A DNA stretch of 10,791 nt from Rhodospirillales bacterium. GTDB taxonomy: Bacteria > Pseudomonadota > Alphaproteobacteria > Rhodospirillales > Casp-alpha2. Position numbers and translations under genes: made by a program. Under the pieces are notes generated by a model. It ran no database searches and was not told the DNA's origin. It worked only from the letters and a program-made list of their open reading frames with translations. The stretch spans positions 1-10,791 of the forward strand of contig JAJFIE010000296.1 in assembly GCA_021775275.1 (NCBI GenBank), in the 5' to 3' direction. Positions 1-10,502 of the stretch are shown here, piece by piece; within the stretch, counting starts at the first letter, position 1, and the number at the start of each line of letters is the position of its first letter.

Positions 1-326
1 ATCGATTGCGGGCCGTCACCGACAAGGGAACGGATTGCGCTATCGCTCTGGCCCGTGAGCAGAAACTGGAAGATGGTTCGGTTCTCTTGCTGGATGAACA
101 GAGCGCTATTGTTGTTCGCATGAAAGAAGAACGTTGGCTGCGCACAAAGCCGTGCGATGTACCCAGTGCTTTGGAAATGGGCTACTTTGTCGGAAACCTT
201 CATTGGCGCGTACGGTTCGATCAAGAGGTGCTGGAGATTGCCATCGAAGGCCCGGTGGACTTTTATCTGAGTCGATTAAAGCCGTATCTGGACTCTGGCA
301 AAATCAAGGCTCTGTCAGATGGGTAA
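1..326 (+). CDS. ureE: Urease accessory protein UreE, 5'-truncated by window edge
   Basis: UreE is the nickel metallochaperone that delivers Ni2+ to the UreDFG-urease apoprotein complex in the cytoplasm. The frame is open from position 3 and about 108 codons are visible, against a usual length of about 150-160, so the start lies upstream. The visible part carries the end of the N-terminal domain (acidic 'LEDGSVLLLDEQ', then 'VVRM') and the C-terminal metal-binding domain with the G-N-x-H-W motif about 65 residues in, followed by a 'DFYLSRL' helix. It ends in KIKALSDG, so it lacks the His-rich tail that many UreE proteins use for nickel storage. The stop codon overlaps the start of ureF by 8 bp, which suggests translational coupling. 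A TTG at position 6 could be called as a start but would cut into the conserved domain. The assignment rests on motif and operon position. Confidence 0.85.
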   Translation, partial: RLRAVTDKGTDCAIALAREQKLEDGSVLLLDEQSAIVVRMKEERWLRTKPCDVPSALEMGYFVGNLHWRVRFDQEVLEIAIEGPVDFYLSRLKPYLDSGKIKALSDG

Positions 327-999
327 AGCCATAACCATGCTGGCGGCTCTGCAACACGGTGACAGTTTCTTTCCCTCCGGTGCAGCATCGTTCTCTTGGG
401 GATTGGAAACTCTTGTATCAGAGGGGACGGTATCAGATGCCTCGGACGTAGAGGTGTTCATCCGAGCACAGCTTGAGGGGCGCTGGGCATCGTTCGACCG
501 GGGTGTTGTTTCTGCCGCCTATAAAAACTCAGACAATATGGAAAAACTCTGCCGGATCGATTCACTCGTCGAAGCGCAGACGCTGGCGAGCGAGATGCGG
601 GATGGTTCACATCGATCCGGCCTGGCGCTGCTGCAGGTGCATGAGAAGTTGGGCAGTCCGCTCGCGGCATCATACCGGAACCTTGTCCGTGCTTCAGCAG
701 CTTACGGAAATCTAAATGTCATGCAAGGATTCCTATGGGCCAATACGGAAATGTCTGTCGACGACACAGAGGCGATTTCTGCTCACACCTTGTGTGTTAG
801 CCTTCTTGGCGCGGCTGTTCGCCTTGGGGCCATTGGTCACATTGAAGCCCAGCGGATTCTTGGGATGTTGCATCCGACGATTGACGAATTGGTTGATGAT
901 CCGCCGCCGCCACTGGCCAAACTACATGCTTTCACGCCCATCTCAGAAATCGCCGTGATGCGGCACGAGACGATAGACTCGAGATTGTTCGCAAACTAG
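319..999 (+). CDS. ureF: Urease accessory protein UreF
   Basis: UreF acts with UreD and UreG in the apo-urease activation complex, where it modulates the UreG GTPase and helps gate nickel and CO2 delivery. The 226-residue product has the usual UreF length. It has the characteristic N-terminal block 'FFPSGAASFSWGLE' (residues 17-30) and the conserved C-terminal end around 'ISEIAVMRHET..SRLF', which contacts the partner subunits. The fold is expected to be all alpha-helical and soluble, with no signal peptide. The ATG at 319 overlaps the ureE stop by 8 bp and has an AAGG about 9 nt upstream. A second ATG at 337 is a possible alternative start that would still keep the conserved block. The gap to ureAB is 28 bp, so the genes are probably cotranscribed. 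Confidence 0.92.
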   Translation: MGKAITMLAALQHGDSFFPSGAASFSWGLETLVSEGTVSDASDVEVFIRAQLEGRWASFDRGVVSAAYKNSDNMEKLCRIDSLVEAQTLASEMRDGSHRSGLALLQVHEKLGSPLAASYRNLVRASAAYGNLNVMQGFLWANTEMSVDDTEAISAHTLCVSLLGAAVRLGAIGHIEAQRILGMLHPTIDELVDDPPPPLAKLHAFTPISEIAVMRHETIDSRLFAN

Positions 1000-1027
1000 G
1001 TGACAATCTCAGACAGGGAGGTTCACT

Positions 1028-1726
1028 ATGTTACTGACGCCAACTGAATTGGAACGGCTTGTTATCTATACGGCGGCCGAGCTTGCCAGAAAGCGGAAAG
1101 CCAAGGGGTTGACGCTGAATCATCCTGAAGCGGTGGCATACATCTCAGATGAAATTCTTGAAGGAGCGCGGGAAGGTCGGAGCGTTGCCGAAATGATTGC
1201 TTTCGGCTCAACGTTGCTGACGACCGACGATGTCATGCCCGGTGTTGCCGATCTGATGCCGATGATCCAGGTGGAGGGCATGTTCCCGGACGGAACCAAA
1301 CTCGTCACTGTTCACGACCCCATCCGGCCGGGTAAGACGAAGAAGCCAAAAGATGCGGTTACACCGGGAGAGCTATTGGTTGATGATGGTGAAATCGAGA
1401 TCAATGCAGGCCGGAAAACAGTAACCTTGAAGGCGGTCAATACGGGCGATCGACCCATCCAGATCGGTAGTCACTACCATTTCTTCGAAGCGAATAAAGC
1501 CCTTGATTTCAATCGCTCCGATGCATTCGGAATGCACCTCGATATCCCATCAGGAACGGCTGTCCGTTTTGAACCTGGCGAGTCAAAAGAAGTTACGCTG
1601 ACCGAATTTGGTGGGTCGGGAGAACTTTTCGGTTTGAACAATCTGACTAATGGGTCGGTCCATAGCGAGAGCCGTAAAGCGGACGCATTGCGCCGGGCAA
1701 AAGAACAAGGTTTCAAGGGAGCTTAG
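1028..1726 (+). CDS. ureAB: Fused urease gamma/beta subunit (UreA-UreB)
   Basis: This is a structural subunit of urease. Residues 1-100 match the gamma subunit (start '[22 protein letters not shown]', and '[14 protein letters not shown]' at 60-73). Residues 101-112 form a Lys/Pro-rich linker. Residues 113-232 match the beta subunit (the '[14 protein letters not shown]' block, '[11 protein letters not shown]' at 146-156, 'GLNNLTNGS' near the end). Many bacteria encode gamma and beta as separate proteins of about 100 and 100-130 residues. The single 232-residue chain resembles the arrangement of Helicobacter UreA. A strong Shine-Dalgarno (GGGAGG, about 1016-1021) precedes the ATG, which fits the high expression of structural subunits. 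Only 3 bp separate it from ureC. The fusion looks genuine: the linker is in frame with no stop, and beta has no internal ATG with a ribosome site. Confidence 0.95.
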
Positions 1727-1729
1727 ATC

Positions 1730-3442
1730 ATGGCGAAAATGGCGCGAGAAGACTATGCGAACATGTATGGGCCGACGACGGGCGATGCTGTTCGACTTGG
1801 CGACACCAATCTTTTTGCTGAGGTTGAGCACGACTATGGCATTCCCGGAGAAGAGTGCCTGCACGGTGGTGGTAAGACGCTCCGTGACGGTCTGGGGTTG
1901 ACGCCCGGATACAATAGCGCGCAAGGCTCGCTCGATATGTTGCTGTGCAATGCGACAGTGATCGACCCTGTTCTGGGCATTGTTAAAGGTGATATCGGGA
2001 TCAAGGATGGAAAGATTGTCGGTGTCGGTAAGGCTGGCAATCCGTCCACTATGGACGGCGTCGATTCAAACCTGATCTGTGGCGTGGCAACAACGGTACG
2101 TGACGCCGAAGGACTGATTGCGACACCGGGCGGTATTGATGTGCACGTACATTTTGATTCTGCCCAACTCTGCGAGCATGCCATCAGTGCAGGACTGACC
2201 ACCATGATCGGTGGATCGCTCGGTCCCATCACCGTTGGGATTGACTGCGGCGGCGCGTTCAATGTTGGCAAGATGTTGCAGGCGGCCGAACAATGGCCGA
2301 TCAACTTCGGCTTTCTAGGGCGGGGCAACACATCCAAGCCAGGGTCTATTGAAGACCAGATCGCTGGGGGATGTTTTGGACTGAAGATCCATGAAGATTG
2401 GGGTGCGATGCCTGCTGTCATCGACACCTGCCTTGGCGTTGCAGATGAAATGGATTTTCAGGTTCAGCTTCACACGGACACTTTGAACGAGAGCGGTTTC
2501 GTCGAAGATACGCTTGCCGCCATCAACGGCCGGACGATTCACATGTACCACACGGAAGGCGCGGGTGGCGGACATGCGCCGGATATCATTCGGGTCGCGG
2601 GCGAAGCAAACTGCCTGCCATCGTCTACCAACCCGACGAACCCGTTCACAGTGAATACCTTTGATGAACATCTGGATATGACGATGGTGTGCCACCACCT
2701 GAGCCCCTCAATCCCTGAGGACGTGGCGTTCGCCGAAAGCCGCATTCGCGCCCAGTCGATTGCCGCAGAAGATGTGCTTCATGATCTGGGGGCTATTTCC
2801 ATGCTGGGGTCAGACAGTCAGGGCATGGGACGCATCAACGAGGTCATTACGCGGACCTGGCAGCTGGCATCGAAAATGAAAGACCAGCGTGGTCGCCTGG
2901 CTGAGGAAACCGTGACCAAGGGCGATAATGAGCGGATTAAGCGCTACATTGCGAAGTACACGATTAACGCCGCACGCACTTTCGGGATTGAAGACCATGT
3001 TGGATCCCTGGAAGCTGGAAAGCTCGCGGATGTGGTTTTGTGGCGACCGGGGTTCTTCGGCAGCAAGCCGGAGCTCGTCATCAAGGGCGGCTTCATCGCA
3101 TGGGGCGCTATGGGGGATAGCGCGGCATCTCTTATGACGTGCGAGCCGCTTCAGATGCGGCCCCAGTGGGGAGCGTTTGGCAAGGCAAAGGAAGCCCTCA
3201 GCGCATGTTTCGTCAATCCGCTGGCTATCCAGAACGATCTGGCAAACAAACTTGGCCTGAACAAATCACTTCTGCCAACACATGGAACACGGCAAATCAG
3301 CAAACAGCACATGCTGCACAATGATGCCTGCCCGAACATTCGTGTTGATGCACAGACCTTCGATGTTTTTGTCGATGGTGAGCTGGCGACGTGTGAGCCG
3401 GCAGAAAAACTACCGTTGGCGCAACGGTATATGCTGCGATGA
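1730..3442 (+). CDS. ureC: Urease catalytic (alpha) subunit UreC
   Basis: UreC hydrolyses urea to ammonia and carbamate, which decays to CO2 and a second NH3, at a dinuclear nickel centre. The 570-residue length is normal. Expected nickel ligands are present: H139 and H141 (GGIDVHVHF), the lysine to be carbamylated K219 (GLKIHEDWG), H248 (LHTDTLNE), H274 (HTEGAGGGH) and D362 (GSDSQGMGR). The flap Cys-His C321-H322 (MVCHHL) and R338 are also kept. The second urease signature ([17 protein letters not shown]) fits the family pattern. The segment after the first histidines is unusual. Where most ureases read roughly GGGTGPA.GT.ATT.TPG, this protein reads [20 protein letters not shown] (161-180), and P133 breaks the first signature. 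Activity is likely but the pocket may differ. The stop overlaps the ureG ATG (ATGA). Confidence 0.96.
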
Positions 3443-4074
3443 GTAATAACACCTCTGGCAATCTCCCTTCTCCAGCCAGAGTGGGAATCGGTGGACCGGT
3501 TGGTTCGGGTAAAACCGCGCTTATTGAAAAGCTGATCCCCGCGTTGGAGGCGCGCGGCATAGAAGTCGCGGTCGTCACCAATGATTTGGTGACAAAGGAG
3601 GATGCAGAACGCCTGAAGAAAAGTGGCCTCATTGATCCTGAAAAAGTGAGAGCTGTCGAAACCGGAGCATGTCCCCATACCGCCATCAGGGAAGACCCTA
3701 CCCTGAATATTCAGGCCGCAGATGATCTCGCCAATTTGTTCCCCCGAATTGGCGTCGTGATCATTGAAAGCGGCGGCGACAATCTAGCCTCCACGTTTTC
3801 GCTTGATCTGGTCGATTACTGGATGTTCGTCATCGACACCGCCGGCGGCGATGACATTCCCCGCAAAAAGGGGCCGGGGATTGTTCGCTCTGATCTGCTC
3901 GTAATTAACAAAACCGATTTGGCCCCCCTCGTAGGCTCCGATCTTGACCTCATGGAGTCAGATGCCATTGGCGTTCGTGGCGGCAAGCCCATTGCCATGA
4001 CCAACTGCGCAACGGGTGAAGGGATCGATGCGGTCATTGACCATTTATCCCGGGATGTCTTGTTTGATGCCTGA
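3439..4074 (+). CDS. ureG: Urease accessory GTPase UreG
   Basis: UreG is the SIMIBI-class GTPase that carries nickel, as a GTP-driven dimer, into the UreDF-urease complex. The 211-residue product shows, in order, the P-loop GPVGSGKT (19-26), '[11 protein letters not shown]' (48-57), the nickel-binding Cys-Pro-His C78-P79-H80 in '[14 protein letters not shown]', the '[13 protein letters not shown]' switch region (109-121), and the guanine-specificity motif NKTD (157-160). There is no His-rich N-terminal extension of the kind some UreG proteins carry, so with this UreE the urease chaperones have little nickel-storage capacity. The start is fixed by the 4-bp ATGA overlap with ureC. The 3' end overlaps ureD by 8 bp. 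Confidence 0.96.
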
Positions 4075-4939
4075 TTCCGTCGAAGGACCTGACAGCGAAA
4101 CCATGCCGCCAACTGGAACTGGGCGAATCGAGTTGGTGTTCCAAAACGACCCCGAAGGGCGGAGCTATCTCGCGGAGCAGTACAGCTCGTATCCGTTTCA
4201 TATCTGCCGCGCCCACTATGTGGATAAGAATATCCCGGGGATGGCGACCCTATATACACAGTCTTGTGCAGGCGGGATTTTTAAGGAAGATCGTTTATTC
4301 ATGAAAATTCACGGGCGGGAACACGTCTGGACCCATGTTACGACGCAGGCATCGACCATTGTTCATCGCATGGAAGAGGGATTCGCACGACAGCAGGTTG
4401 ATATCATTGCTGATCAGGGAGCATTGATAGAGTACCTGCCTGATACCACAATTCTTTTTCCAAAAGCGAAACTCCAGTCATCCATAAATATCAGGCGACA
4501 CCCGGACAGTGATGTCATTGTTGCAGACTCGTTTCTTACCCATGATCCGGGCAATGCGGATGAGACATTTAGCTGGTATGAAAGCGAGCTTGTTATTCAG
4601 CAACCTGACGGTCGTGTTGATGCGATTGACCGCTTTTCGGTAACTGGGGAGACGTTCATTTCTGGGGAAACATCCGCTCCCGGACAAAATGCTGTCTATG
4701 GAACGTTTGCTGTGATCAGTGGTAGAGCCGATAATTGTGCGTTTTCGGTGGCCCTCCGGTCTTGTATGGAAGCGCGTGCCGACGTCTATGCCGGTGTGTC
4801 ACGATTGCCAAATGATACAGGCTGTTGGGTTCGATATTTTGCGATGGATAGTGTAGCGGCAAAAGCTTTTGCAACGGCGCTATGGGGTGTCTCGCGGGAG
4901 TTACTGACAGGGTATACTCCTGATTCACGAAGAAAGTAG
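4067..4939 (+). CDS. ureD: Urease accessory protein UreD (UreH)
   Basis: UreD is the scaffold that binds apo-urease and, through UreF, recruits UreG. Its internal tunnel is thought to pass nickel to the active site. The product is 290 residues from the chosen ATG. Family blocks are visible: '[16 protein letters not shown]' (a form of the G-G-hydrophobic-x-x-x-D segment), '[11 protein letters not shown]', '[19 protein letters not shown]' and 'DSFLTHDP'. An in-frame ATG at 4016 lies well inside ureG and adds residues that look like an out-of-frame reading of ureG. The ATG at 4067 overlaps the ureG stop by only 8 bp, matching the coupling elsewhere in the operon. UreD is usually the least conserved urease accessory protein, and this copy is recognisable but divergent. 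It is the last urease gene. Confidence 0.9.
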
Positions 4940-5089
4940 ATGGCACGGTATACAAAGTTGGCTGATGCAGTGTGCAGAATAGTCATCACCACTAACGCCA
5001 GCATTATCACGACACTCATAACCATGCCGGTCACGGCAATTGAAATTTCGATATCGTACAGGGCACCGTTGAACAGGGTTTGGTTTTGA
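4940..5089 (+). CDS. Possible 49-residue hydrophobic small protein directly after ureD
   Basis: An ATG begins at the base immediately after the ureD TAG stop and opens a 49-codon frame ending in TGA at 5087-5089. The product begins MARYTKLADAVCRIVITT and continues with a hydrophobic Ile/Thr-rich stretch of about 25 residues, compatible with one membrane segment, before a basic tail. Direct abutment to ureD and the purine-rich GAAGAAAG upstream would allow translational coupling. I recognise no family. It may be a real small membrane protein, or chance open frame downstream of the operon. There is no database or codon-bias evidence available here, so confidence is low. Confidence 0.28.
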   Translation: MARYTKLADAVCRIVITTNASIITTLITMPVTAIEISISYRAPLNRVWF

Positions 5090-5162
5090 TGCTTGAATCT
5101 GACCTGCCTCTATGAACTGGTCATTCACGTTGAGAGTTCTTCCGCGCGATAGTCATGTTGTT

Positions 5163-5240
5163 TGGCATTATGTCAGCACGCGCTCTAACATCCATTAAAT
5201 TGATGAATATCATCAAAAATTGTAACCTATTATATCTATT
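5163..5240 (+). promoter_or_regulatory. Candidate LysR-type operator and promoter upstream of gdmH
   Basis: Two dyads lie in the AT-rich part of the gap. TGGCATTATGTCA (5163-5175) is a nearly perfect palindrome with T-N11-A geometry, the classic LysR box. TTGATGAATATCATCAA (5200-5216) has perfect 6-bp arms and also contains T-N11-A. A -10-like TATTAT lies at 5228-5233 with no good -35. A start site near 5240 would put the first dyad near -71 and the second over the -35 region. That is the usual recognition-site plus activation-site layout of a LysR-activated promoter. The obvious candidate protein is the LysR regulator encoded at 7579. All of this is inferred from sequence pattern. Confidence 0.38.
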
Positions 5241-5456
5241 TCGTATTTTTATACTGACAACTCAGTGGAGCCAAGGCACAGGAACATTTCGAGAGCCTTC
5301 TTTGCAATGAGAGCAATTCATCCAGCGCTTGGAATGGCCCGTTAGAAGGGAACACTAGAGGCCAGTTTGTGAGAGTAGTCGCGATCCACTTGATTGCCCC
5401 ATGATCGCCATCTTCCGTGTCATAGCAACTAACAAAAGTGTCGAAAGGTTATACAC
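5241..5456 (+). promoter_or_regulatory. Long 5' leader of gdmH with tandem potential hairpins
   Basis: If transcription starts near 5240, the gdmH message has a leader of about 215 nt with no convincing reading frame. It can form several small stems: AAGGC/GCCTT (5273-5299), TGGCC/GGCCA with an inner TAG/CTA pair (5335-5364), and GCGATC/GATCGC (5381-5386 with 5403-5408). None is followed by a U-tract. I do not recognise the conserved cores of the known guanidine riboswitch classes. The gdmH ribosome site AAAGG (5444-5448) is not occluded by any of these stems. The structures may be regulatory or accidental. Confidence 0.2.
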
Positions 5457-6644
5457 ATGCCAGACCCCAAAACAGGTGAGCTACGTGGAAATCGGAATCT
5501 GAATAGACTTGAGCGCATTTCTCAAACCAAGCAGGACGAGGAAGTCCAGCGGGGTTTGGAACTGGGGCTTGAAGCGGCAGACTCGATCAATGACCGATCG
5601 ATCTCATTATTCAGCCGTGGGCATCTCCCCGCCTTCGCTGGCATCAACACCTTCATGAAGACTCCATACTGTGAAGACATTCGTGAGGTCGGTAAATATG
5701 AAGCAGCTTTTGTTGGAGCGCCTTTTGATGGCGGTACGACATACCGACCGGGAACGCGCTTCGGCCCTCAGGGTGTCCGGCGTATTTCAGCGGTCTATGA
5801 TGGTTATTGTGTTGATGGTGCAGTTGATCTGTTTGAGGAACTCGACCTTTGCGATGCTGGCGACATTTTTGTCATCCCTGGCAGTATCGAGAAAACTTTC
5901 GACCAGGTTTCAAAAGCTGTTTCCCATATTTATACGTCCGGAGCCTTCCCGATCATCGTCGGTGGTGACCACAGTCTTGGGTACCCAAATGTCAGAGGCG
6001 TAGCACCTCATATCGATGGCAATGTGGGTATCATCCATTTTGATCGTCACCTGGATACCCAGGACATCGACATGGACGAGCGCATGCACACAACTCCGTG
6101 GTATTGGACAACCAATGACCATGAAAGCGTTGAGCACAACAAAGCTCACCAGGCCCACAGTCATATGCATGACGTTGGCCTGTCAAACTGCCCGCCAAAG
6201 AATCTTGTTCAGATTGGCATTGGCGGCTGGTACGGGAACCGGCCAGGTTCAGAAGTCGCCCGTGATCGCGGCACAAGTGTCATTACCATGAAGGATTTCG
6301 AAGAGCTCGGAACCGAGGGTACAGCAAACATGGCACTTGAGCTCGCGTGGAAGGGCTGCGACGCTGTTTATCTGTCTTTCGATATCGACAGCATTGATCC
6401 CGGTTATGCCCCGGGCACCGGCACGCCGGAACCCGGTGGATTTACGCCACGGGAAGCTCTGGAAATGGTTCGCACGATTGCGAAAGAAGGCTTATGCGCC
6501 ATGGAAGTTGTCGAGGTATCACCGCCATATGATGTGAATGACAGCACGTCCCAGCTCGCATGCCGGGTTATCCTGGATACGCTCGGCACCATGGTCACCG
6601 AAGGTAAGTTGGGTCATCGTGATCAGGTAATGAAGCCCGCATAA
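5457..6644 (+). CDS. gdmH: Nickel-dependent guanidine hydrolase (GdmH-type ureohydrolase)
   Basis: This ureohydrolase-fold enzyme (arginase/agmatinase superfamily) probably converts guanidine and water to urea and ammonia. It has 395 residues, longer than agmatinases (about 300-320), with an N-terminal extension of about 80 residues as in the cyanobacterial guanidine hydrolase group. Visible metal sites are H172 (GGDHS), D196, H198 and D200 (HFDRHLD), and D309 and D311 (SFDIDSIDPG). E353 (EVVEVSPPYD region) is also present, as is the substrate loop 'GGTTYRPGTRFGP' (92-104). Most agmatinases read HFDAHxD; the Arg at 197 is what I remember from the guanidine-hydrolase branch. A His-rich stretch (six His between 222 and 238) appears inserted after 'ERMHTTPWYW'. 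Flanking urease and nickel genes support the call. Alternatives are another guanidino-acid hydrolase such as agmatinase or guanidinobutyrase. AAAGG lies 8 nt before the ATG. Confidence 0.82.
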   Translation: MPDPKTGELRGNRNLNRLERISQTKQDEEVQRGLELGLEAADSINDRSISLFSRGHLPAFAGINTFMKTPYCEDIREVGKYEAAFVGAPFDGGTTYRPGTRFGPQGVRRISAVYDGYCVDGAVDLFEELDLCDAGDIFVIPGSIEKTFDQVSKAVSHIYTSGAFPIIVGGDHSLGYPNVRGVAPHIDGNVGIIHFDRHLDTQDIDMDERMHTTPWYWTTNDHESVEHNKAHQAHSHMHDVGLSNCPPKNLVQIGIGGWYGNRPGSEVARDRGTSVITMKDFEELGTEGTANMALELAWKGCDAVYLSFDIDSIDPGYAPGTGTPEPGGFTPREALEMVRTIAKEGLCAMEVVEVSPPYDVNDSTSQLACRVILDTLGTMVTEGKLGHRDQVMKPA

Positions 6645-6732
6645 TCTCTCCTAGCGAGAGGAGCCCGGCGGCGGTTGTTCCCATTCCACCTGCTTCGTCG
6701 CCGGACAGAATTTTGCGACCTGGAGAAACGTG

Positions 6733-7446
6733 ATGTTTTCAATCCTCGGCTTGGGCTTTCTTCTCGGTATGCAACATGCCTTAGAAGCCGATCATATCGC
6801 AGCCGTTGCAAGCTTGACGAGTGGTGATGCTTCACGCCGACGGATTGTCGTTCACGGCGCGACCTGGGGGACCGGCCACGCTCTCACATTGATGGTTTTT
6901 GGCGGCGCCGTTTTGCTCTTCGGTTTCCAGGTTGATGATGGCATTGCTCACTGGCTCGAGTTCGCTGTCGGCGCCATGTTGGCCATACTTGGTGGAAGGG
7001 TGATCGTCAGTGTGCTGCGTGAGAGGATCCACATCCATTTCCATCTCCATTCCGACGGTCGTTCACACATCCATGCCCATAGCCACAAATACGCATCTGC
7101 ATCACACAGAACACACGCCGCCCATGATCACGCGCATACCCGTCTCTCATTCGCCCATCTGGTTCAAACGTTCGCCGTTGGGATTATGCACGGCATGGCC
7201 GGAACAGCGGCCTTGGTGATCCTGGTCACCGCCTCCAGTGTGGGATCCGTCGGTCAGGGCGCGTCATACCTATGCCTGTTTGCACTTGGCTCGGTTCTAG
7301 GTATGGTCATGTTGACTGGCATTGTGCTGTTCCCAGCCTCATATGCTATCCGCGACACCCCAACACTTGGTCTTATTGTCCGAACAACAATTGGTGTTGC
7401 AACGGTCATTGTCGGTGGACATGTCATGTTCGAAAACTGGGTTTAA
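6733..7446 (+). CDS. NiCoT/UreH-type nickel permease with His-rich loop
   Basis: This inner-membrane transporter of 237 residues probably imports Ni2+ for the two nickel enzymes encoded here. The first helix carries the family metal signature H-x4-D-H (H15, D20, H21, in 'GMQHALEADHIAAV'). A second conserved block, 'GTGHALT' (46-52), and the motif 'VGIMHGMAGTAAL' (149-161) follow. About six hydrophobic segments can be drawn (roughly 2-13, 50-66, 74-95, 143-167, 178-200, 213-232). Between the third and fourth lies a hydrophilic loop (99-142) with many histidines, a likely metal-binding or sensing patch. Family members move Ni2+ or Co2+, and context favours nickel. A GTG at 6730 is one codon upstream, but the ATG at 6733 is better spaced from TGGAG (6721-6725). 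It lies 88 bp after gdmH on the same strand, so the two are probably cotranscribed. Confidence 0.85.
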   Translation: MFSILGLGFLLGMQHALEADHIAAVASLTSGDASRRRIVVHGATWGTGHALTLMVFGGAVLLFGFQVDDGIAHWLEFAVGAMLAILGGRVIVSVLRERIHIHFHLHSDGRSHIHAHSHKYASASHRTHAAHDHAHTRLSFAHLVQTFAVGIMHGMAGTAALVILVTASSVGSVGQGASYLCLFALGSVLGMVMLTGIVLFPASYAIRDTPTLGLIVRTTIGVATVIVGGHVMFENWV

Positions 7447-7447
7447 T

Positions 7448-7540
7448 CTGCGTGCCCCGCTTGATCACGAGGTGATAAGTATCCTTCAGTGGTTCGGGAT
7501 ACTATTGGTATTCGCTGGGGTAATGGTATTGTCGGCATAG
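7448..7540 (+). pseudogene. Possible C-terminal remnant of a drug/metabolite-type (SMR/EamA-like) exporter
   Basis: Between the nickel permease and lysR, a short open frame reads LRAPLDHEVISILQWFGILLVFAGVMVLSA and ends in TAG at 7538-7540. Its last part resembles the terminal helix of SMR and EamA transporters, which commonly end with an acidic residue, a short 'S-L-x-x-x-G' turn and 'I-x-L-I-x-A-G-V'. There is no room for the rest of such a gene, because the permease frame occupies the upstream sequence. If real, it is a decayed remnant, or alternatively a 22-residue peptide starting at GTG 7472. The similarity is from memory and short, so chance is quite possible. Confidence 0.2.
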
Positions 7541-7578
7541 TTATTGGTTTCCACAAACTCAATTGGGTGGCGTAGCTT

Positions 7579-8538
7579 GTGACCAAATCGGATCTTCCCA
7601 ATCTTGTGCAGACAAACCCGCAAAACAGTCGGCGGTTTGCGAGGAATCTTGACTGGAATCTGCTGCGGACTTTCTACGAGATTGTTAACGCAGGTGGTTT
7701 GAGTGAAGCGGCGCGCAAACTAAGTAGAGGCCAGCCTTCCATCAGCATGGCATTGCACCGACTTGAAGATCACATGGACACAATCTTGTGTCGGCGAGGG
7801 CCAAGCGGTTTTGCACTTACAGTCGATGGGGAGCTATTGTTTGGAAAATGCGAAAGAATGTTCGGCATTGCAAGTGAAATCCCAAGTGCACTAGCAGACG
7901 CTTCCAATGAGATTCGTGGTCGTATTCGGCTGCAACTCATCAGCAATCTCGTAGATGAGAGCATTGATCTCGCCATCAGTCGATTCCATCAGGAACACCC
8001 AAACGTAGAGATTTTTGTTACTGTATCGACGTGGGATGTCGTTCAACGAAGCGTTATGAGAAACGAGGTAGAGATCGGCGTGTCGCCGGTCACATTGCGG
8101 ACTCCAGGATTGAGCTACGAGGTCCTGTTCCGAGAAACCTACAAACCCTATTGTGGACGACCTCACCCGTTGTACGGTGTGGTTTTGAAGCGGCCGGAGG
8201 AATTGTCCGAATATTCGTTTGTCTTGACGGGTGCCGACGAACCAGAAAGCCAGATCCGGTTCCGTCAGCGATATGGATTAGGCAAGCATCTTGCCGGACT
8301 TTCGGAACATTTGGAGGAAGCCCGACGCTTGGCGGTCTTGGGTGTTGGGTTGTGTTTCTTGCCGGAAACGTTCGTCTCTCGTGAAGTGCAAGAAGGCAAC
8401 CTGCATTCCGTTCTCGTTCCAGGTGACGAGCCAATGTCCGATATATTCGTGATCTCCAACCCGGAAGCACCGCCCCATCTCGCGCGGGATCGCATGCTAA
8501 GCCTCCTTCGCGAAACGTATCAACCAACTTCAAACTGA
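7579..8538 (+). CDS. LysR-type transcriptional regulator
   Basis: This 319-residue regulator has a winged helix-turn-helix at about residues 24-83 ('LDWNLLRTFYEIVNAGGLSEAARKLS', then 'QPSISMALHRLED'). A periplasmic-binding-protein-like effector domain follows (about 110-310), with typical segments 'RIRLQLISNLV' and 'LAVLGVGLCFLPETFV'. A short hydrophilic extension of about 22 residues precedes the DNA-binding domain. The start is GTG at 7579; an in-frame TAG at 7573-7575 rules out anything upstream, and GGGTGG (7565-7570) is a reasonable ribosome site. It lies on the same strand downstream of gdmH and the permease. It is therefore a candidate activator of the gdmH promoter, where LysR-box dyads are found, possibly responding to guanidine, urea or nitrogen status. 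The effector is unknown. Confidence 0.93.
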   Translation: MTKSDLPNLVQTNPQNSRRFARNLDWNLLRTFYEIVNAGGLSEAARKLSRGQPSISMALHRLEDHMDTILCRRGPSGFALTVDGELLFGKCERMFGIASEIPSALADASNEIRGRIRLQLISNLVDESIDLAISRFHQEHPNVEIFVTVSTWDVVQRSVMRNEVEIGVSPVTLRTPGLSYEVLFRETYKPYCGRPHPLYGVVLKRPEELSEYSFVLTGADEPESQIRFRQRYGLGKHLAGLSEHLEEARRLAVLGVGLCFLPETFVSREVQEGNLHSVLVPGDEPMSDIFVISNPEAPPHLARDRMLSLLRETYQPTSN

Positions 8539-8665
8539 GACCACCGATACTGCCAACTCTTTATCAAGACGTAGTATGACAAGAGGGGCGTTTGGTATTG
8601 GGATTGACCAGGCGGATTCACTACCTAAAACCCAACCTATTTGGCCATGAGGCTTTGTCATACCA

Positions 8666-8686
8666 GATTACCTCAAGCAAGTAACC
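8666..8686. terminator. Weak hairpin in the convergent lysR/hypB gap
   Basis: The 164-bp gap between the convergent lysR and hypB genes holds a stem GATTACCT/AAGTAACC (8 pairs, two of them G-T wobbles) with a 5-nt loop. It could help end transcripts from either side, but neither strand shows a following T-run, so a true intrinsic terminator is doubtful. The same gap contains a widely spaced 9-bp inverted repeat (GTATGACAA at 8574-8582 and its complement at 8655-8663). I see no gene in the gap. Confidence 0.2.
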
Positions 8687-8702
8687 TCATATCCAACAGA
8701 TT

Positions 8703-9566
8703 TCAAGCAGCTCCCTGACCTAATGATACATTCTGCATCTCAATCGAGGCATACTTTGCTTTTGCAATAATCCAGTTCTGCCAATCCTCCAGTCCTTCGC
8801 CGGATTTAGCGGAAAGTTTCATGACTTTCAGATCAGGATTGACCCTGTGAGCGTACTCAATTGCCAAATCCACATCAAAATCCAGATGAGGCAAGAGGTC
8901 GATCTTGGAAAGGATCATCAAATCCGAAGCGGCGAACATATCCGGATACTTGATCGGTTTATCTTCACCCTCGGTAGCGGACAGAATGACAACCTTGGAC
9001 GCTTCACCGAGGTCAAAAGCCGCCGGGCAGACCAAATTTCCGACATTTTCGATCAGGATTGCCCCACCCGGATCAAGAGGCAGGTCTTCAAGGGCATGAC
9101 CGATCATATGGGCATCTAAGTGACAGCCTTTGCCTGTGTTGATTTGAACAGCGGGAATGCCCGTTTCACGTATTCTGTCTGCATCGTTGGCGGTTTCCTG
9201 ATCACCTTCGATGACGCCGAGGGGTATTTTATCTTTCAGTCGTTTCAGGGTTTCCACAAGTAAGGTGGTTTTCCCTGCGCCGGGACTGGAGACCAGGTTT
9301 AGAGCCAGCAAGCCTCTTTTCGCCAACCGTTGCCGGTTGGTTTCAGCATACCCATCGTTCTTGGACAGTATATTCTGTTCTATCTGTATTAGGCGATCCT
9401 GGGTGTATCCGGCAACGGATACACCTGCCATTCCCTGGCCATAATGATGATCATGCCCTTGGGGATGGCCATGATCATGTTTGTGTTCGTGGGAGTGTTG
9501 ATCAGAGGGGTGCGTATGTGAATGATTATGATCGACTACTTCGTTGCAACCGCACACTGTACACAT
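8703..9566 (-). CDS. hypB: HypB/GhaB-type nickel-inserting GTPase
   Basis: This is a SIMIBI-class GTPase that delivers nickel to a target enzyme: NiFe hydrogenase for classical HypB, guanidine hydrolase for the GhaB relatives known beside gdmH. I chose the ATG at 9566 because it gives the canonical HypB start MCTVCGC (C2, C5, C7, high-affinity nickel site). The frame itself could start 27 bp upstream. The 287-residue chain then has a His-rich run (residues 13-41, about a dozen His), the P-loop SPGAGKTT (94-101), '[13 protein letters not shown]' (120-132), the dimer-interface metal site C148-H149 (GKGCHLD) and C180 (NLVCP), and SKID (220-223) in the guanine-specificity position. No hydrogenase gene is in view, so GdmH maturation is the likely job. 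It is transcribed towards lysR. The usual HypA partner is not found. Confidence 0.93.
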
Positions 9567-9668
9567 CACTATCTTCCAATCCCTGTTGAGCAAAAATCAA
9601 TTTCTTGGCCGGCGTGTTATACGGCGCTCAAAAAAACCGATTAATCAGTCAATTTTAATGTGAAGTAA

Positions 9669-9797: not shown

Positions 9798-10493
9798 TCA
9801 TGCAGCGGCGACCATCGCATTCCAACAGCTCAATGCTTCATCTCTGAACAGGCGCATTGTCTTCCGGGATATGAGGTGTCGTTGAATGTTGAAGTGGTTG
9901 TAGAAGGCTGTGAATGTAGAAAGGAATCGCTGTACTGATTTGGATGATTTGAAGCGTTGCTGTTTTCGCTCTCGTCTTCGCGTTGGTTGATGCGAATTTT
10001 CTGCTCTGTTGTTCAACCGCTTGCCAAGCATATGGATTGCAGATGGGATAGTTTCCCGAATTGCGGCAAGTGTTGGCCGTCACTTATCGCTAACAATGGT
10101 GCTGGGGCCTGCCTCAAGTTTTTTCATTGTTTTTCGAAGAAACTTGGTGGCAGCAACCTTGTTTCTCCTAGACTGGAGCAAGATTTCCAACACCTCACCT
10201 TCTGCATCTACAACTCGCCACAGATACATCTGCTTGCCATTGATCTTCAGAAAAACCTCGTCAATGTGCCACGTTGAGAACGCATTGGAGCGACCGGCTC
10301 GCATGCGCTGGGCGTATGCTGGGCCAAACTTGAGACACCATCTTCAAACAGTTTCATACGAAACCTTAATCCCGCGCTCGGCTAGGAGGTCTTCAATATC
10401 TCGATAACTCAACGTGAACTGATAATAGAGCCAGACGGCGTATTGGATAATCGAGGGTGGAAAGCGATGGCGGCGATAGGAAATAGGTTTCAT
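9798..10493 (-). pseudogene. IS6-family transposase with two in-frame TGA stops
   Basis: One continuous frame of 231 codons runs from ATG at 10493 (MKPISYRRHRFPPSIIQ start) to the end AMVAAA at 9798. TGA codons interrupt it at codon 50 (10344-10346, where 'ETV-R-RW' would be expected, CGA to TGA) and at codon 138 (10080-10082, after 'IVSDK', where a Trp codon TGG is likely). No frameshift is needed. The DDE catalytic acids remain: D78 (WHIDEV), D136 (SDK) and E165 (NNRAENSHQPTRRRER). The N-terminal region (roughly 5-50) is the helix-turn-helix of the family. Both lesions are C-to-T/G-to-A transitions, and other genes here end with TGA, so these are true stops. The gene is inactive but recently so. 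Confidence 0.88.
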
Positions 10494-10502
10494 ACAATCA
10501 CC

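Follow-up and report, generated by a model that had tools for sequence, protein, structure and literature searches.

A clade of ureohydrolases beside the nickel guanidinases, encoded behind urease genes in a Rhodospirillales bacterium, with a small substituted guanidine as candidate substrate

Genes of the locus

We analyzed a 10,791-nucleotide stretch of DNA (the window) from a Rhodospirillales bacterium (assembly GCA_021775275.1, contig JAJFIE010000296.1), in which a single ureohydrolase gene at 5457–6644 follows a set of urease genes. The contig is C219 of a metagenome-assembled genome (MAG; G000 in our numbering) with a completeness of 74%. The ureohydrolase belongs to a group that we termed clade A, which lies beside the guanidine hydrolases (guanidinases, GdmH) and differs from them at a tryptophan used to recognize guanidinases. 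Since longest open reading frames gave unreliable gene calls in GC-rich loci, conservation-weighted calls were used for these instead. In the window, the following genes and features were identified:

3–326, plus strand: ureE, 3' part only, start off the contig (NCBIfam UreE, 128.5 bits, profile positions 43–144 of 169; Pfam UreE_N)
319–999, plus strand: ureF (Pfam UreF, 92 bits)
1028–1726, plus strand: ureAB, fused gamma and beta subunits (NCBIfam bifunctional urease gamma/beta, 358 bits, cut-off 243)
1730–3442, plus strand: ureC, urease alpha subunit (NCBIfam, 866 bits)
3439–4074, plus strand: ureG, GTPase for urease nickel loading (TIGR00101, 251.5 bits, cut-off 204.2)
4016–4939, plus strand: ureD (Pfam UreD, 108 bits)
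5457–6644, plus strand: clade-A ureohydrolase of the GdmH branch (461 and 454 bits to 9fek and 7esr; site, insert (80 loci) and tree)
6117–6179, plus strand: His-rich insert, residues 221–241 of the ureohydrolase (gap against 9fek; pattern shared by clade-A loci)
6423–6425, plus strand: codon for Thr323, which aligns with the guanidinase Trp (alignment column)
6730–7446, plus strand: NiCoT-like permease, probable nickel uptake (HX4DH motif and His-rich stretch, by eye)
7579–8538, plus strand: LysR-type regulator (Pfam HTH_1 and LysR_substrate)
8703–9593, minus strand: hypB, His-rich nickel GTPase (TIGR00073, 292 bits, cut-off 121)

Profile and Pfam searches found the urease gamma, beta, and alpha subunits and the accessory proteins D, E, F, and G, and the UreC of the window was the single UreC match in the MAG. 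An earlier reading of this DNA (the original prediction) had placed UreF, fused UreAB, UreC, UreG, UreD, an arginase-family protein, a LysR regulator, and HypB at about these positions, and the profile matches bore it out. It had also described a complete urease operon and nickel supply genes. All urease gene types were indeed seen, but ureE was cut by the contig end and retained only its last 107 residues. HypB was confirmed, but the permease had no match in Pfam and just one, a weak one, among the NCBIfam models (19 bits against a cut-off of 200); we call it NiCoT-like from its HX4DH motif, which we take to be a mark of that family. HypA (PF01155) was not found in the 74% complete MAG. The gene content was partly confirmed, with corrections to ureE, the permease family, and HypA.

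The true start of ureD may lie further in, because its longest open reading frame overlaps ureG, and 517 bases separate ureD from the ureohydrolase gene. Promoter and terminator scans of the window showed no excess over shuffled sequences. The remains of a transposase, disrupted over two or more frames, were located at 9798–10502 on the minus strand, and two of the three pieces searched matched DDE_Tnp_IS240.

A clade beside the nickel guanidinases

The best solved relatives of the ureohydrolase were the guanidinases 9fek (461 bits, 57% identity) and 7esr (454 bits, 56%), the next one scoring 173 bits, and the agmatinase model TIGR01230 gave 151.4 bits, below its cut-off of 174.3. The placement near GdmH therefore holds. 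Consistent with the phylogeny expected in the original prediction, trees grouped the protein with guanidinases, apart from guanidinobutyrase, guanidinopropionase, and the agmatinase-like paralogues of the MAG, in a sampling that included no characterized agmatinase. On scores and trees together, we rejected guanidinobutyrase and agmatinase as its identity. Like GdmH of Synechocystis PCC 6803 and Nitrospira inopinata, to which it was 56–57% identical over the aligned part, it is a single-subunit arginase-family protein that keeps the metal ligands (H172, D196, H198, D200, D309, and D311, invariant in 39 of 39 aligned rows) as well as Thr105 and His222. An AlphaFold model was poor (mean predicted local distance difference test score 68.5), and nothing was concluded from it about the insert. 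Seven further contigs of the MAG (C91, C454, C447, C390, C261, C197, and C58) had arginase-family matches, of which four were confirmed by Pfam.

According to PMC11410670, the guanidine specificity of the Synechocystis enzyme rests on Thr97 and Trp305, and the methods of that paper assign guanidinases by Thr105, His222, and Trp313 in N. inopinata numbering. The window protein has Thr, His, and Thr at these sites, with Thr323 in place of the Trp. Because the protein fails this published rule, guanidine is doubtful as its substrate. The paper also marks relatives lacking the rule residues as inferred not to be guanidinases, so the existence of such relatives is not new.

To compare the relatives, we used the best 80 of 220 stretches that encode one and come from named genomes, comprising 41 clade-A loci (71–97% identity to the window protein) and 39 others (54–60%). 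Thr105 was present in all 41 clade-A and all 39 other loci, and His222 in all 80. The Trp site was occupied by Thr in 21 and Ser in 19 clade-A loci, that is, by Thr or Ser in all 40 readable ones (L049 was cut before the site), whereas the other loci had Trp in 37 cases and Thr in two, both of the latter from Streptomycetaceae. The His-rich insert behind His222 showed its pattern in 41/41 clade-A loci and 0/39 others. Among the best 120 of the database proteins listed as matches, all had Thr at the Trp site and 118 had the insert pattern. A separate class sample of 385 class members was also drawn; besides the window, 13 of 384 had a family member. Twelve of these loci were analyzed (G479 was left out, being the same place as G136), two of which repeated loci already counted (L139 = L049, L144 = L080), and L139 and L140 were cut before the Trp site.

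A careful tree, built without the insert and Trp columns and after dropping 14 of 76 rows (four MAG paralogues and ten near copies), recovered clade A with support of 97/93, clade A and the Streptomycetaceae pair as sisters with 97/95, and the Trp-type clade with 74/71. The window protein fell outside the clade of characterized guanidinases, with the stated support for the Trp-type clade, and the Trp was explained by one change. We relied on this tree; in a quick tree the rows outside clade A did not form one group. The two Streptomycetaceae proteins (L050 and L053, Streptomyces and Embleya) carry Thr where the Trp would be, lack the insert, and had no match to the guanidine-I riboswitch; they may represent a third type.

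Thr at the Trp site is shared with proclavaminate amidinohydrolase, 3-guanidinopropionase, and guanidinobutyrase, members of the same superfamily that act on larger substrates, which speaks for a substituted guanidine as the clade-A substrate. Alternatively, clade A might cleave a larger guanidino compound such as agmatine, guanidinoacetate, taurocyamine, or creatine, releasing urea together with an amine or amino acid, and the many other ureohydrolase paralogues of the MAG suggest that guanidino catabolism may be broad in this bacterium. We consider such a substrate quite improbable, as the window protein scored 156 bits to guanidinobutyrase and 3-guanidinopropionase, and no more than 173 bits to the three enzymes, against 461 to a guanidinase. 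Guanidinobutyrase and 3-guanidinopropionase also fell outside the branch of GdmH and clade A (proclavaminate amidinohydrolase was not in the trees). Moreover, the protein stayed under the agmatinase cut-off that 3/3 MAG paralogues tested exceeded, and in part of its relatives the neighboring genes encode proteins resembling dimethylguanidine hydrolase (DmgH) and type III glutamine synthetase (GlnT-III).

Riboswitches, neighboring genes, and urease

No guanidine riboswitch was found in the window, and no guanidine-I riboswitch (RF00442) in the MAG. One window match, 5_ureB_sRNA at 1938–2178 on the minus strand, scored 27.8 against a cut-off of 40, lay over the ureC coding sequence, and was given no weight. 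RF00442 was detected in 16/16 genomes with Trp-type genes (one below the cut-off), where its coordinates place it no more than about 5 kb upstream of the gene; this was confirmed inside seven loci (L059, L068, L071, L073, L075, L080, and L084). It was found in 0/2 Streptomycetaceae genomes and near the clade-A gene in 0/30 clade-A genomes (L032 was not part of this search). Elsewhere in these 30 genomes, six had a match over the cut-off and a seventh a weak one, the nearest lying 40 kb from the clade-A gene and the rest further away or on other contigs. In G121, G124, G125, G126, and G129, the riboswitch precedes carboxylase (guanidine or urea type) or UAAP genes, and G128 (Primorskyibacter, L106, 7177–11337) has a riboswitch-led operon with a Trp-type GdmH besides its clade-A copy. 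A search of 13 clade-A loci, mostly from genomes already counted, with all Rfam families also yielded no guanidine riboswitch, while Trp-type loci searched alongside gave 2/3.

The regulator and transporter differed as well. A relative of the LysR regulator occurred in 19/41 clade-A loci and 0/39 others. Against TIGR03427, two substrate-binding proteins from Trp-type operons scored 505 and 563 bits and one from clade A scored 34 bits, indicating that clade-A relatives use another transporter protein. The window differs from the GdmH systems of Synechocystis and N. inopinata in Thr for Trp, the insert, the adjoining LysR gene, and the absence of a detected guanidine-I riboswitch. The original prediction had named a GdmH-type guanidine hydrolase; the grouping stood, but guanidine as the substrate found no support from the Trp rule, riboswitch, or transporter.

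A true guanidine hydrolase, making urea from guanidine for the adjoining urease and controlled by LysR rather than by a riboswitch, is nevertheless a possibility, if a rather doubtful one. The closest characterized proteins are two guanidinases, whose Thr, His, Glu, and metal-binding residues are kept, and both most clade-A genomes and some Trp-type loci are without a riboswitch-led guanidine operon or riboswitch. Yet the protein breaks the Trp rule and sits in a separate clade, no riboswitch was found beside a clade-A gene, the transporter differs, and G128 carries a riboswitch-led Trp-type copy in addition to its clade-A gene. Should the substrate prove to be another compound, overall similarity would be an unsafe basis for calling guanidinases.

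Neighboring genes in part of the relatives were compatible with methylated guanidines as substrates. In L009, whose clade-A protein was 97% identical to that of the window, HypB, HypA, and a ureohydrolase pair are encoded upstream of the clade-A gene and a second ureohydrolase pair downstream; the first alpha protein had 65% identity to metformin hydrolase subunit A. DmgH-like genes also lay near the clade-A gene in L031 and L034, and the window HypB was 60–80% identical to the HypB proteins encoded near the DmgH-like pairs of these three loci. A DmgH-like alpha gene was found in 12/32 clade-A genomes, 0/18 Trp-type genomes, and 0/2 Streptomycetaceae genomes (Fisher p = 0.002 for 12/32 against 0/18, which is optimistic because the rows are related). 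A GlnT-III-like gene was present in 9/41 clade-A loci and 0/39 others, and the nearest Protein Data Bank entry of the one such protein tested was glutamate-methylamine ligase (344 bits). A relative of the window permease occurred in 9/41 clade-A loci (49% identity in L009). In L010, L034, L045, and L048, the recurring neighbors were GlnT-III-like, AllG-like, and APC permease genes, together with weak metallophosphatase-like and FMN-reductase-like genes.

According to PMC11399263, the DmgH/MefH operons of Aminobacter, Hyphomicrobium, and Pseudomonas likewise have HypA/HypB, a HupE-like permease, and urease in the vicinity of a nickel ureohydrolase. DmgH consists of alpha and beta subunits, whereas the window has a single ureohydrolase gene and not the tandem alpha/beta arrangement; its product was about 33% identical to a DmgH-alpha-like protein, and no DmgH-like alpha gene was found in the MAG.

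The linkage to urease was sporadic. The original prediction had proposed a survey of genomes for a conserved linkage of the ure genes and gdmH. UreC was found in the flanks of 0/41 clade-A loci, 28 of which had at least 5.5 kb upstream, and the closest other ureohydrolase–UreC pair in the whole clade-A genomes searched was about 16.5 kb apart (G117); the linkage is thus not conserved. UreC flanked 1/39 other loci: in the actinobacterial locus L069, a guanidine-I riboswitch immediately precedes a row of genes for a Trp-type GdmH, a permease of the amino-acid type, and urease. In the class sample, the Trp-type locus L149 had UreC about 5 kb upstream. These two loci, and the urease that PMC11399263 places downstream of a dimethylguanidine hydrolase cluster, run counter to the view that the arrangement is without precedent, and we found the earlier interpretation as a whole partly supported. 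In the comammox route described in PMC11410670, a guanidinase likewise forms urea and urease finishes the pathway with no ATP step, but there the urease is located away from the riboswitch-led guanidinase genes.

UreC was present at E 1e-80 in 36/47 genomes searched, a number in which two genomes count twice (G001 = G100 and G010 = G101 by match places). Relatives 80–86% identical to the window UreC were encoded in G105, G112, G113, G117, G118, G119, G123 (as fragments), and G129. In G105, G112, and G118 (L124, L126, and L127), this urease type directly follows a DmgH-like alpha/beta pair, which stands before ureE. In G117, a DmgH-like pair lies about 10 kb upstream of the urease, and the clade-A gene is on the same contig. 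The contigs of G113, G123, and G129 were cut by their ends. No DmgH-like pair was seen in six other stretches, which surround ureases of lower similarity. On contig C84 of G112 (L126), a second urease alpha gene lies some 10 kb from the first and on the other strand; the two are 84% and 69% identical to that of the window.

Urease and ureohydrolase might also adjoin by accident, two operons having been joined by rearrangement with no shared pathway, an explanation compatible with any substrate. The UreC-free flanks of the clade-A loci, the gap behind ureD, and the IS240-type transposase remains favor it. We judge it unlikely all the same, since the same urease type occurs near clade-A or DmgH-like genes in G117, G105, G112, and G118, and urease is of benefit to an enzyme that releases urea.

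Candidate substrate and its meaning

The reading that we favor, and that we hold to be about evenly balanced against all others taken together, is that clade-A enzymes hydrolyze a small N-substituted guanidine, with methylguanidine as the first candidate, and feed urea to urease. In this scheme, the ureohydrolase at 5457–6644 would convert the substituted guanidine to urea and an amine, and the urease encoded before it would split the urea to ammonia and CO2. Nickel would be provided by HypB and the permease, while the LysR regulator may sense the substrate. Nickel use and the hand-off of urea to urease are both plausible. The urease block probably came from the operon type that starts with a DmgH-like pair in relatives, in which case this pair would lie off the contig here or have been lost.

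Published activities leave a place for such an enzyme. As reported in PMC11410670, methylguanidine yielded no urea with a Trp-type guanidinase, and as reported in PMC11399263, metformin hydrolases did not act on it, so that both leave methylguanidine unused; the latter source also describes a 70% relative from Hyphomicrobium that hydrolyzes dimethylguanidine and not metformin. A ureohydrolase with an opened pocket, accompanied in part of the genomes by DmgH-like and methylamine-ligase-like genes, would fit this gap. More specifically, but only tentatively, clade A could supply the methylguanidine hydrolase that is missing so far, as a nickel enzyme of one subunit giving urea and methylamine within a methylated-guanidine pathway. 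No open-licence paper was found that names a methylguanidine-hydrolyzing ureohydrolase or a gdmH–urease operon, and the word methylguanidinase occurs in one toxicology paper.

Several observations count against the favored reading. Guanidine could still be the substrate, because the change from Trp to Thr may merely relax specificity, and Glu344 is kept like Thr105 and His222. Methylguanidine as such is suggested by its fit to the gap and by the company of the gene, and no activity report on a clade-A member was found in the open-licence literature. No guanidine-I riboswitch over the cut-off was found in 24/30 clade-A genomes, and these genomes therefore show no competing guanidine route led by such a riboswitch. 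The class sample had a riboswitch at 0/3 clade-A loci but at only 6/9 Trp-type loci (the L145 sequence ended 2.8 kb upstream; neither L143 nor L149 had one), and with 16/16 genomes before, the Trp-type link is therefore strong, not absolute. A nickel permease (HupE/NiCoT-like) within 4 kb was no mark of clade A (17/41 against 12/39). At E 1e-90, 20/32 clade-A genomes had no DmgH-like alpha, including the incomplete MAG of the window, and the window-type urease of G119 was preceded by other genes with no DmgH. Urease is also not obligatory, as UreC at E 1e-80 was absent from the close relatives G001 and G010 (95% and 91% complete).

If clade A is indeed a methylguanidine hydrolase, then together with DmgH, urease, a methylamine-ligase-like enzyme, and nickel supply it would form a methylated-guanidine pathway in marine bacteria and methylotrophs, standing beside the riboswitch-led pathways that serve guanidine. 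With any substrate other than guanidine, many environmental proteins named agmatinase in the sources would have an unrecognized function. The natural source of methylated guanidines is described as elusive or not yet found (PMC12508155, PMC11399263). The occurrence of a methylguanidine hydrolase next to one for dimethylguanidine would suggest that methylated guanidines are real nutrients.

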